The notes under the pieces were generated by a model that made no database searches, was not told where the DNA came from, and saw only the letters and a list, made by a program, of their open reading frames with translations. From positions 1 through 44,387 of the forward strand of contig JAAYYI010000041.1 in the NCBI GenBank assembly GCA_012515445.1: a stretch of DNA of 44,387 nucleotides, read 5' to 3'. Positions 20,038-24,037 of the stretch are shown piece after piece. Source of the DNA: Candidatus Bathyarchaeota archaeon (GTDB taxonomy: Archaea; Thermoproteota; Bathyarchaeia; Bathyarchaeales; Bathycorpusculaceae). A program made the translations under genes and the position numbers. Each line of letters starts with the position of its first letter. Position 1 is the stretch's first letter.

Positions 20038-21819
20038 TTAACGGATTTTTTCACGTAACCTCAAAAGAATTCCATTTATCGACGCTTCCGCCTTATCGCG
20101 GGTTTTCTGCGCGTCAGCAATATTGCGTTTGTAGCTTTCGATCGAGATTTGCCCTTTGCTTTGTCGTGCTTCGAGGTTGCGTATGCTCTCTTCTGCCTCT
20201 GCTTGGTCTGCTTCGGCTAAGTCAAGCTGGTTCATGAGTTCAGGGTAGGTTCCTGCTGCTCCACGGAAGACTGCTTTGTTGCGTTTTATGGTTCTGTCTA
20301 TGGCTTTGATCTTGTTTTCTAGGGCTTCACGTTGGACTTTATATTGGCGTCTGGGGATTTTGCCTTTCTGCGCTTTTGTGTCTATTGCGTGGAGTTCAGC
20401 GGTTAGTTGTTTCTTGTCTTCGTAGGCGTCTATGAAGTCTCTGATGTGTTCTGCTGTTATCTGTTCGCCTTTGACAACTTCGGCTACGTTTTTCTTTGCA
20501 GCGCTTTTCTGTGGAGGCGATTTTACTGTTCTTGTATAGCGTGTTTCTTTGGGTTTGCGGTTGCGGTAGATGACTATTGCTGCAACTGCAATTATGGCGG
20601 CTGCTATTGCCACTAGCGTTGGTGTGAAGGATACCCAGACTGGGTTGTACTGGTATGCTAGCTCGATTGTGTTGGCTTGTGGGGCAAGGAAGTCTACGGA
20701 GCTTACTTGGTCGGCTGTTACTGTTAGGGTATCTTGGTATGCGCCCCGTGTTAGGGTTGAGGATGAATCAAGCTGGCTTGCTTCTGGTGAGGTTATGGTT
20801 GCTCCCTGTGGCAGGTTGAAGGCTGCTTTTGCTTCTGCGATTACGTATTGGTAATTGGCGAAAAGCTGGAAGTCTTTCATTTCGTATTGGTCGTTTTGTA
20901 GGATTGCTCCTGGGAGGCTGTAATGTACTGTTAGGGTGGTTGCTTGGCCGCTGGAGAGGTATGATTGTAGTGTCGCGTTGACTAGTTGCATGTTGCTGCC
21001 GCTTGATGTTATTGCGGATAGGGCTGTTCCGTGTGTGTCTCTGACGTCGATGTTTATTGCGGCTGCAGGCAGAGTCAGTGTGTATGCGCCTATTGCGGTT
21101 GAGGCGTTGTTTATTATTTGGTAAGTTTCGACGGCGTTGACTGTTCCGGTTGCGTCGATGTTGATTTGCCGGTCCAATGTTGGTATCATTGAGGATACGA
21201 TGGTTCCGGCTGTGACTTTGATGTTGGCTTGTGCGACTGAGTAGGTGTATGCTGCGAGGTTGCTGGCTGTGTAGCTTGTGGATGTTACGTTGCCGTCGTC
21301 TTTGCCGATGCTGATGGAGGCTGGCGTTTGGGGTGTGGTAACTTGGACGTTTACGGCGCCGACTGTTTGGTCAAGGCTTGGGTAAGCTGGGAAAGCGATT
21401 AGGAAGTTGCCGTTTCCCTGATCGATTGTCACGCCGTTTGATAGGATGAATGCGACTGTGAATCTGCTTGGTGTGTACCCGTTGAAGTTGATTTGTACAG
21501 CGTAGAAGCCTGTTTGGTCGCCTAGTTGGATGCCGCCCTGGTTTACTGTGAAGGTGTGGCTGTCGTCGTAGGCTATGACTTTGAGTACGCCTGTGCTGAA
21601 GGCGTAGGGAACGGCGATTGTGAAGCCGTCGGTTACTGTGCCGCTGACGTGTATGGTGTCTAGTACGGCAACGTTTCCGCTGTACATGACTTGTATGTTG
21701 TGGTCTACTTGGGTTATGCTGTAGCCGGTTTGGGCGGATGCGCCGCTTAATGATACAAATGGTACGATGGCGCTTAATGTGAATGCTAATAAGAGTATGA
21801 ATGCTATGATTCGTTTCAC
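20038..21819 (-). CDS. ribophorin-I-like membrane protein with cytosolic coiled coil
   Basis: A 593-residue single-span protein. A signal peptide (1-29) ends in SGASAQ. The outer part (30-395) has two beta-rich domains. One membrane helix spans about 398-417, and a basic cytosolic tail (418-593) is largely coiled coil with two similar units around Lys-Gly-Lys-Ile-Pro (near 486) and Lys-Gly-Gln-Ile (near 555). The second outer domain follows the order seen in ribophorin I: LPAAA (250-254), Val-Arg-Asp (259-261), a Tyr-x-Leu-Pro strand (300-303), LPQGA (336-340) and a Tyr-Gln-Tyr-Asn-Pro strand just before the membrane. Ribophorin I is a subunit of eukaryotic oligosaccharyltransferase. Start is GTG with GGTG eight bases before. 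Similarity was judged by eye only. Confidence 0.75.
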   Translation of the reverse strand: MKRIIAFILLLAFTLSAIVPFVSLSGASAQTGYSITQVDHNIQVMYSGNVAVLDTIHVSGTVTDGFTIAVPYAFSTGVLKVIAYDDSHTFTVNQGGIQLGDQTGFYAVQINFNGYTPSRFTVAFILSNGVTIDQGNGNFLIAFPAYPSLDQTVGAVNVQVTTPQTPASISIGKDDGNVTSTSYTASNLAAYTYSVAQANIKVTAGTIVSSMIPTLDRQINIDATGTVNAVETYQIINNASTAIGAYTLTLPAAAINIDVRDTHGTALSAITSSGSNMQLVNATLQSYLSSGQATTLTVHYSLPGAILQNDQYEMKDFQLFANYQYVIAEAKAAFNLPQGATITSPEASQLDSSSTLTRGAYQDTLTVTADQVSSVDFLAPQANTIELAYQYNPVWVSFTPTLVAIAAAIIAVAAIVIYRNRKPKETRYTRTVKSPPQKSAAKKNVAEVVKGEQITAEHIRDFIDAYEDKKQLTAELHAIDTKAQKGKIPRRQYKVQREALENKIKAIDRTIKRNKAVFRGAAGTYPELMNQLDLAEADQAEAEESIRNLEARQSKGQISIESYKRNIADAQKTRDKAEASINGILLRLREKIR

Positions 21820-22336
21820 GAAGTTTTCACCAAACGAGGTTTCGTTAATGTTAGGTTAAGTTGTTTATTTACTTTTACCGTAATCTGAGCATGCGTTTAG
21901 GGCTTGTTTAATTGAGCAGAACCTAAAAGGCGGCTGGTTTGGGGTTGGTTTGGTTTTGTGTGTTTGGTTGATGCTTTCGTATACGGAAATAAATTCCAAA
22001 TTAGAAGAAGAGAACACTGCCCTGCTACTTCATCTTCCATAACTTTATGCAGAAACAGCCGATTCTGGTTTAGCAGTTGGTTTGGGTTGAGGATTGGTTG
22101 TGGCGATTCTACAAGCTTCTGCCAAAAGCCAGCATAGATGAGCTTTTGTTGCTCTCAGTGGACCCCCTCTATTATTTTTTGCATAGAACCGCTAATAGAG
22201 CAGTAGGTAAACAGCTATAGATTCTAAAAACTGGTATTATCAAAATTGAGTCGTGTGTCTTTTTTGGTACGCACACATGTTTAATCGGTTAACAGCTTGA
22301 TTTCTGCTCGAAAAAGGGCTTTTTATGGAAAATTTT
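21820..22336. other. non-coding stretch upstream of the ribophorin-like gene
   Basis: About 515 bases with no supported gene. The part next to 21819 should contain the promoter of the minus-strand gene (AGTAAATAAAC near 21861 is a candidate). It contains AAATTAGAAGAAG at 21998-22010 and nearby words (GGTTGTGGCGATTC near 22103-22116) that resemble the 3395-3520 gap. A weak inverted repeat GTGTG/CACAC flanks 22252-22272. It borders the tRNA 3'-exon copy. Confidence 0.4.
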
Positions 22337-22377
22337 GTTGGCGGCGGGGAGTAGATTTGAACTACTGATCTCTGGGT
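22337..22377 (-). pseudogene. copy of the 3' exon of tRNA-iMet (possible attachment site)
   Basis: These 41 bases match 23131-23171 with only two mismatches, in the same orientation. The match begins two bases beyond the CCA end and stops exactly at the first base of the tRNA 3' exon (position 38), where the intron of the full gene begins. It holds the 3' half of the anticodon stem, variable loop, T arm and 3' acceptor strand. The two changes alter the end of the acceptor strand (CCCCGCCG instead of CCCCGCTA), so it could not pair fully with the full gene's 5' acceptor strand. With the intact gene it brackets 0.75 kb, as attL/attR of an integrated element would. Confidence 0.8.
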
Positions 22378-22463
22378 TATACTTTTAAATTGTTTTTTCG
22401 CCTTCTTGGCAGTGTGGAAAAGCTCAAAAGCAAACCCATACAACAATCAATAGAAGTGTCAGT

Positions 22464-22658
22464 ATGGGTGCTCCCTCATGGGTATACATGCGCCGAATTG
22501 AACATGAACAGGCAGCTCATAGCAACGATGTTTCTAAACTCAATTCAAGGATCGCTGAATTACAGCAAGAGAATGAAGTGCTGAGAAAGAAGGTAAAGGA
22601 GCTAGAAGATGAGAATTTGCGTTTGAGACATGGGCATGAGCCATCTGACAAGCCATAG
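22464..22658 (+). CDS. small coiled-coil protein
   Basis: A 64-residue frame. Residues 9-55 form a charged helix with leucine-type heptads (LNSRIAELQQENEVL, then KKVKELEDENLRL), so a dimeric coiled coil is likely. No DNA-binding or membrane part is evident. It could start at the ATG of MGAPSWVY or at a later ATG (MRRIEHE). No good ribosome site is visible. It is one of two coding remnants inside the tRNA-bracketed island and could belong to a mobile element. Confidence 0.5.
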   Translation: MGAPSWVYMRRIEHEQAAHSNDVSKLNSRIAELQQENEVLRKKVKELEDENLRLRHGHEPSDKP

Positions 22659-22666
22659 AAGTCTGT

Positions 22667-22951
22667 TCAGCCCTCAAACTCTTTCTTAATATCAGCGATT
22701 ATTTGGTTCAAAACTTCTTTTGATGAAATAGAAACTCGACAAATTCCATTTGGATGTATGTGTCTAGCTGTTCCTTGCCCTCTTGATTTTATCCATGATT
22801 TGGTAAATCTATCTTGATTGATTTTCAACTGCTCGGACCAAAAACTCTTCGCAGCCGCTTCATCGGAATTTGGCCATAAATGAAGCCTAACTTTCATGTC
22901 TGTTTTCGTTATGCTATAATATCGTTCAAGCCAATCCACGTATAATACCAA
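22667..22951 (-). pseudogene. C-terminal remnant of a homing-endonuclease-like protein
   Basis: A 94-codon frame starting at TTG with no ribosome site. The frame stays open upstream to a TGA at 22991-22993 and there reads Arg-Val-Ala-Leu-Thr-Ser-Thr-Asp-Pro. In another frame just before it, a basic linker-like segment (VKGTGRKRAE) is encoded, so a frameshift probably broke the gene. The remaining part has VRLHLWPNSDE, SFWSEQLKINQDRFTKSW and a final helix, the pattern of the C-terminal module of HTH plus LAGLIDADG-like proteins common in plasmids and mobile elements (recognition by eye, moderate to low certainty). It lies inside the tRNA-bracketed island. Confidence 0.5.
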
Positions 22952-23132
22952 TACCTTTGGGTCGGTAGAAGTCAGCGCAACTCTGTATGTTCAGCTCTCT
23001 TGCGACCTGTCCCCTTCACACCAATACATTATCAACCCTTCTCTATGAGTCAGCGGCATCTGAGGTCATGAAGTAGTTTGGGTTAGTGGTGACTTAAAAT
23101 GTTCTAACAGCTTTATGTGAAAAGTTATTCGT

Positions 23133-23236
23133 TGGTAGCGGGGAGTAGATTTGAACTACTGATCTCTGGGTATCTCACAGACGCTTACTGCGCTGTTATG
23201 AGCCCAGCGGGTTAATCCTGGCTACCCCACCCCGCT
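23133..23236 (-). tRNA. initiator tRNA-Met (CAU) with 25-nt intron and encoded CCA
   Basis: Full cloverleaf on the minus strand. Acceptor AGCGGGG pairs with CCCCGCT, discriminator A, encoded CCA. D arm GGGT/ACCC, anticodon stem CTGGG/CCCAG, loop CTCATA-A with anticodon CAT at 23200-23198, T arm AGTAG/CTACT. The A1-U72 pair and three G-C pairs next to the anticodon loop are archaeal initiator features. A 25-base intron (23196-23172) interrupts at the canonical 37/38 site, with ACAG and CTGT in it able to form the short central helix of a bulge-helix-bulge. The tRNA splicing endonuclease must remove it. Its 3' exon is duplicated at 22337-22377. Confidence 0.93.
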
Positions 23237-23347
23237 ACGTATGCTATTCAAAACGGGTTTAGCGCAGTCTATTAACATCTTGTCAGGTATTAATAGTTTC
23301 TTTTTCTAAAGTTGGCAAAAGCCTTTTAGTTGGGAACCTATTTCCGT

Positions 23348-24037
23348 ATGGCTGGATGGAAATTAATGGACAAGCCGTACTTGCGCAAACTCTCAAACCC
23401 GACCCTTGACAACCCAATCTTCATACAGGGTCTACCGGGCTTCGGAAACGTAGGACGAATCGCCGCTCATCTGCTCATAAAATTCTTCGACGCAAAACCA
23501 TACGCTGAGCTCTACTCACCAACGTTCCCAGACTACGTTTCAATCTCCAGCAAGGGCATTGCGCATCTACCGCGATACGAATTCTTCTACGCCCCAATAG
23601 AGAAGAACAACATCATAATCATGACAGGCGAAATCCAGCCGAGCTTCGATGACACCGTCGCGCACTATGATGTCTGTGATTCTGTGTTGGATTTTGTTGA
23701 GGAAATGGGCTGCAAATTCATCGTAACCATGGGCGGTGTACCCATCACAGAGGATAAAACTCAGGTGTTTATTGCAGCTACTTCGTCTAGGCTGGCGACT
23801 GAGTTTATGGAGAAAGGCGGCGTCATCTACAGCAAAGGCAAAATCGTCGGCGGCACTGGCTTAACCTTGGCGCTCGCGAAGGAACGCAAGATCGACGGCA
23901 TCAGCTTGCTGGGTACAACCATGGGTTTCAAGGCTGACAAAGGCGCTGGTTTCTTAGTTTTCAAGTTTTTAATGAAGGCTTTGGGAAAAGAGATAAAAGA
24001 AGGGTTCGCAGAAAACAATCAACCTGAAGAGACATAA
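23348..24037 (+). CDS. PAC2-family protein (proteasome assembly chaperone-like)
   Basis: About 229 residues. Member of the archaeal PAC2 family, related to proteasome-assembly chaperones. Family marks are the N-terminal GLPGFGNVGRIAAHLL near 28 and the central Gly-Gly-Val-Pro. Archaeal members probably act in the cytosol, but their role is not established. Start is uncertain: TTG 23330, ATG 23348 or ATG 23366 are in frame, and GGA before the last is the only ribosome-site hint. ATG 23348 is used here. A small membrane-protein gene follows after 12 bases. Confidence 0.88.
   Translation: MAGWKLMDKPYLRKLSNPTLDNPIFIQGLPGFGNVGRIAAHLLIKFFDAKPYAELYSPTFPDYVSISSKGIAHLPRYEFFYAPIEKNNIIIMTGEIQPSFDDTVAHYDVCDSVLDFVEEMGCKFIVTMGGVPITEDKTQVFIAATSSRLATEFMEKGGVIYSKGKIVGGTGLTLALAKERKIDGISLLGTTMGFKADKGAGFLVFKFLMKALGKEIKEGFAENNQPEET

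Follow-up and report, generated by a model that had tools for sequence, protein, structure and literature searches.

A putative homing endonuclease cassette may have given an archaeal initiator tRNA gene its intron and a new 3′ half

The window, the whole stretch of 44,387 nucleotides that was analyzed, is one contig of one metagenome-assembled archaeal genome (assembly 92% complete) and carries an intron-bearing initiator tRNA gene (iMet) followed by a second copy of its 3′ part. We consider it fairly probable that a small mobile cassette, driven by its own endonuclease, entered an iMet gene that had no intron, at the intron site in the anticodon loop (nt 35-38). The cassette would begin with a bulge-helix-bulge intron, followed by a replacement 3′ exon and then by a gene for a LAGLIDADG-like homing endonuclease. 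The new 3′ exon would restore a whole tRNA, now bearing an intron, and the native 3′ half would be left stranded behind the endonuclease gene. The features of the locus are as follows.

23236-23133, minus strand: tRNA-iMet(CAU), whole gene (ARAGORN with introns allowed).
23197..23236, minus strand: iMet exon 1 (nt 1-37), probably native, as its upstream flank aligns with relatives including the closest one, G021 (ARAGORN).
23172..23196, minus strand: 25-nt intron at 37/38, lacking in the closest relatives; it forms the left end of the insert (ARAGORN, folding).
23171-23136, minus strand: iMet exon 2 (ARAGORN).
23135-23133, minus strand: encoded CCA of iMet (ARAGORN).
23133..23171, minus strand: replacement 3′ exon with encoded CCA, followed by insert sequence and not by native flank.
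22667..23029, minus strand: single-motif LAGLIDADG-like endonuclease gene (homology from 23053, first ATG at 23029, in-frame TGA at 22993-22991).
22381..22666, minus strand: 286-nt stretch unique to the window genome among 41 genomes searched.
22464-22658, plus strand: ORF for a coiled-coil-like protein of 64 aa inside the 286-nt stretch, on the strand opposite to the endonuclease.
22339..22377, minus strand: nt 38 to CCA of an intronless iMet, the native 3′ half now stranded (alignment with G021).
22262..22338, minus strand: native downstream flank of the original iMet (aligned with the G021 flank, z 8.0).
20038..21819, minus strand: 593-aa gene, directly after iMet in empty sites (locus comparison).
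23330..24037, plus strand: PAC2-family gene, before iMet in nearly all relatives (locus comparison).

A preliminary description of this DNA had placed an intact iMet with an intron at 23133-23236. ARAGORN found the gene when introns were allowed and missed it in a run without introns, and the folded pre-tRNA showed an acceptor stem, an anticodon stem and a bulge-helix-bulge-like intron, confirming the assignment. In two other genomes, G036 (L056) and G034 (L062), iMet carries an extra insertion of ~27-35 nt near the variable/T arm, likely a non-canonical intron.

The second copy had been described as an exact 41-base repeat on the same strand. The repeat is real, lies like the gene on the minus strand, ~0.75 kb away, and is not exact: 34 identical bases (22377-22344) are followed by CG for TA and then by 5 identical bases (39/41). 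It is far beyond chance, as a 33-mer with two matches in the window had none in 100 shuffles, and a genome search found the copy to be the only other match to the iMet 3′ part in its own assembly. Judged by the intact gene in the window, the copy starts precisely where the intron meets the 3′ exon, a boundary already noted in the first description; compared with the intronless iMet genes of relatives, it continues to match for 3 more bases, the ATA at 22378-22380 that precedes ACCCAG and corresponds to anticodon-loop positions 35-37. It holds no trace of an intron, and its discriminator and last stem base are mutated.

The first reading had also allowed that the fragment might encode a 3′ tRNA half, to be joined by trans-splicing with a 5′ part that begins GGCGGGG. 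The fragment does keep a T arm, CCA and an acceptor strand able to pair with GGCGGGG. However, no such 5′ half was found when the 92% complete assembly was searched, the leader is AT-rich and neither structured nor complementary (only the T arm folds), an intact iMet is present, and the fragment is already accounted for as a native remnant, so we regard this option as very improbable. The GGCGGGG candidates that were rejected comprised chance matches in non-tRNA sequence, a tRNA-Ser and, as read by eye, a further CAU-type tRNA with an intron and a match at a contig end that resembles tRNA-Leu.

Comparison with related genomes revealed the empty sites that had been proposed as a check. The gene order PAC2 gene, tRNA-iMet, 593-aa gene is conserved in the genus with no insert, whereas the window has ~1 kb extra. 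From the iMet start to the 593-aa gene, the distance is 231-440 nt in nine relatives, which thus hold an insertion-free allele, and 1422 nt in the window; two further relatives have 697 and 1013 nt, the latter with a VapBC pair inside. The stranded half and its flank align in one piece, over 126 columns at 74%, with the intronless iMet and flank of G021. Scored by flank only, the stranded half gave z 8.0 against G021 and at most 2.8 against all other genomes. In contrast, the downstream flank of the window's intact iMet did not match G021, its best score being z 2.5 against G003, the other one of the nearest genomes to carry the endonuclease gene. Because the stranded half and its flank align with the G021 gene and flank, and the flank of the intact gene does not, the alignments identify the stranded copy as the original 3′ half of an iMet that had no intron. 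Upstream, the intact gene likewise has a native flank, which aligns with relatives including G021.

We also examined whether the intron was gained on this branch. G021 has an intronless iMet, and in a PAC2 tree the window paired with G021 (support 99/85) inside a clade of ten genomes (97/93), of which the other nine are intronless; over the whole tree, the intron presence label requires at least six changes. Since the window genome falls within a supported and otherwise intronless clade, the intron was probably gained together with the insert. The three extra matching bases carry little weight by themselves, and they agree with the flank and the tree. The exact exon boundary of the copy, previously considered unusual, is accounted for if a native gene without an intron had been cut at what is now the intron site. 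Native nt 1-37 and native nt 38 onward make up one complete tRNA, and therefore a single insertion at the intron site would explain the locus without any loss.

Part of the earlier proposal that the copy is the att site of a degraded element is upheld by these results, namely insertion into a tRNA gene with the native 3′ part and flank left downstream. An integrase att is not the best version of it, because an endonuclease-like gene, and no integrase, was found in the insert and because the junction falls at the intron site. According to the recombinase version, the cassette would have been inserted by a tyrosine integrase that worked in trans or has since disappeared, with the stranded half as attR and the endonuclease as cargo. 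Such elements classically show a direct repeat of the tRNA 3′ part on the same strand, followed by native flank, and in G029 and G032 a VapBC pair and a RelBE pair, respectively, are enclosed by iMet on one side and a 3′ fragment of iMet on the other, the flank of the G032 fragment matching an empty site (G010:C19, z 30). Set against this are the lack of an integrase in the insert and among 20 scanned window ORFs, the intron right at the junction, by which the two copies differ and which leaves them with hardly any common core, if any, on the 5′ side, and the association of the endonuclease family with tRNA and rRNA genes at nearly all sites where it was detected. On balance, we consider a recombinase unlikely.

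VapBC-like pairs were observed directly behind iMet in G029 (L025), G024 (L041), G580 (L081) and G480 (L084). A 28-base iMet 3′ fragment lies beyond the pair in G029, and in G580 and G480 the pair lies between two intact iMet copies. G032 (L031) has a 14-base iMet 3′ fragment at 1848-1835 on the minus strand, with a RelBE-like pair between iMet and the fragment; the fragment flank is nearly identical to the sequence behind iMet in G010:C19. The VapBC and RelBE gene names were assigned by eye. VapC enzymes of other organisms are known to cut initiator tRNA. As iMet copies and fragments also flank toxin-antitoxin pairs, a cut by the endonuclease is not needed for iMet repeats to arise, and since insertions beside iMet carry more than one kind of cargo, a recombinase or a tandem duplication keeps some probability for the window.

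In a tandem duplication, a complete iMet with its intron and the endonuclease gene would have been placed ahead of the native iMet; the 5′ half of the native gene would later have decayed or given way to the 286-nt stretch. Such an order is seen in G003, where iMet and the endonuclease are followed by a degenerate iMet that is nearly complete and has an intron, and in a distant genus a VapBC pair is enclosed by two intact copies of iMet. The second copy in G003, being near full length and having an intron, is not a simple stranded 3′ half, which speaks against a simple cassette model; in the flank test, the flank of neither G003 copy matched any relative. The window tRNA, intron, spacer and endonuclease align with G003 over 565 bases at 68%. 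The 286 nt before the stranded half, for which no kin was detected in 41 genomes except a weak 37-nt match, are not accounted for by the cassette reading and count against it, as do the TGA in the window's endonuclease gene, the weak assignment of that gene to the LAGLIDADG enzymes and the origin of the locus from one contig of one metagenome-assembled genome. Tandem duplication is in turn opposed by the stranded half of the window, which begins exactly at the intron site with no trace of an intron, and, given that the intact gene keeps its native flank upstream, insertion at a single site needs fewer steps. For these reasons, we consider tandem duplication improbable, and we continue to favor insertion of an endonuclease cassette.

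The window endonuclease reading frame, ~120 residues, lies between the intact iMet and the stranded half and is broken by one in-frame TGA, and so the cassette is probably dead in this genome; the homologue in G003 has an open frame. Among the 61 nearest genomes, only these two have the gene, both times between iMet and a second iMet copy, and a degraded piece of it was found in G121 just behind a CAU-anticodon tRNA with the same CTCATAA loop. A search of 398 genomes of the phylum yielded eight clear homologues, all of them in or beside tRNA or 23S rRNA genes: one at the window iMet, one between the two parts of the G539 iMet, two within introns of tRNA-Asp(GUC) (G308 and G517) and four within 23S rRNA (G341, G356, G435 and G535). 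A ninth, weak match (E 7.5e-4) lies within an open frame of 857 residues in G467. The tRNA-Asp(GUC) introns are roughly 450-570 nt long. The gene in G308 (L069) spans 1284-1928 and has the LAGLIDADG-like endonuclease in its intron, and that in G517 (L078), at ~1207-1734 on the minus strand, has an intron encoding such an endonuclease in an interrupted frame; ARAGORN called the latter gene tRNA-Ser, and its ends, read by eye against G308, are those of tRNA-Asp(GUC).

The assignment of the window gene to the LAGLIDADG homing endonucleases is weak. Residues E14-G15 did not vary across five homologues, among them the ORFs of the tRNA-Asp and 23S introns, which fits the end of the LAGLIDADG motif (a catalytic acid and then G). 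The best solved match to the family profile was I-DmoI, a weak one (E 0.013), and two relatives weakly matched PF14528 (Pfam LAGLIDADG_3; E 3.5e-4 and 0.033), while the window protein itself had no direct Pfam match. A fold predicted from two sequences reached a pLDDT of 77.6, with the first 18 residues (the first helix) mostly below 50, and a PDB fold search with this model gave unrelated weak matches, with no LAGLIDADG structure among the matches listed. Between the window and G003 genes, synonymous sites are saturated (0.77 against 0.25 for replacement sites), and thus only purifying selection in general can be claimed. A viral origin of the cassette was considered and rejected, as no relative was present in viral contigs.

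Previously, cassettes known as mORFs were described in fungal mitochondria, in atp6 of Allomyces and in atp6, atp9, cox2 and nad3 of Glomus (PMC3630166). These have a native 5′ part, a foreign replacement 3′ part, an endonuclease gene and the native 3′ part ~1 kb downstream, and the same layout was found in the window. However, the mORF cassettes occupy mitochondrial protein genes, whereas the window cassette occupies a chromosomal tRNA gene of an archaeon and also brings an intron. Our best reading is that the locus may be an archaeal tRNA version of these 3′-end-replacing cassettes. By analogy with them, the endonuclease would cut the anticodon-loop DNA of the intronless allele, and a donor that carries the endonuclease gene and is homologous only 5′ of the break would serve for its repair, the opposite end being joined to the cut native 3′ half. 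The new allele would then be shielded by its intron, which interrupts the target, as happens in collaborative homing (PMC2988022).

Collaborative, or intronless, homing in phage T4 resembles the window in that a free-standing endonuclease sits beside an endonuclease-less intron at its presumed target, but it involves protein genes with self-splicing introns and not a bulge-helix-bulge tRNA intron (PMC2988022). Archaeal rRNA introns with LAGLIDADG endonucleases of the I-DmoI type have the same enzyme type by profile, and relatives of the window enzyme lie in 23S introns; in those systems, the gene is in the intron, whereas in the window it is outside the intron, behind the tRNA. In Caldiarchaeum, a tRNA-Thr gained an intron and has a 5′ fragment 1.8 kb away, which was attributed to a mobile element (PMC3293823). 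There, as in the window, intron gain goes with a nearby tRNA fragment, but Caldiarchaeum has a 5′ fragment and a recombinase, and the window a 3′ fragment, an endonuclease and a direct comparison with empty sites (PMC3293823).

Furthermore, Aeropyrum and Thermosphaera have a split tRNA-Asp(GUC), divided at 37/38, and Chan and colleagues supposed an element aimed at the 37/38 site, with homing unmentioned in the text (PMC3218864). The same tRNA bears the anticodon-loop endonuclease introns of G308 and G517, and the enzyme encoded there could act in the way supposed for that element. The published proposals we found for a mobile-element origin of archaeal tRNA introns and splits name viruses, plasmids or recombinases, not homing endonucleases, and our literature search, to which subscription journals were mostly closed, found no report of endonuclease-bearing archaeal tRNA introns.

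Finally, G539 (L068) has two perfect iMet half matches 1830 nt apart on the minus strand (~3130-1261), with 15-base complementary arms, a TATA-like box before each half and three ORFs, including the endonuclease, between them. No other full-length iMet closely resembling the query was among the matches in this genome, and the gene is a candidate split tRNA or a candidate for a giant (1.8-kb) intron.

These observations bear on the origin of introns and splits in archaeal tRNA genes, and the window locus would show one route to introns. It provides a before-and-after comparison, in which a sister lacking the intron can be set beside the gene that bears it, the presumed agent adjoining that gene and the discarded native half, and the question is directly testable with one small protein on intronless iMet DNA. 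More speculatively, we suggest as a tentative possibility that one homing-endonuclease family may be a general breaker of archaeal tRNA genes at the anticodon loop, and that tRNA introns and split tRNAs may in part be homing scars. If true, this family would deliver introns, as in the window iMet, live in long introns of tRNA-Asp and make split tRNAs, as in the iMet of G539.
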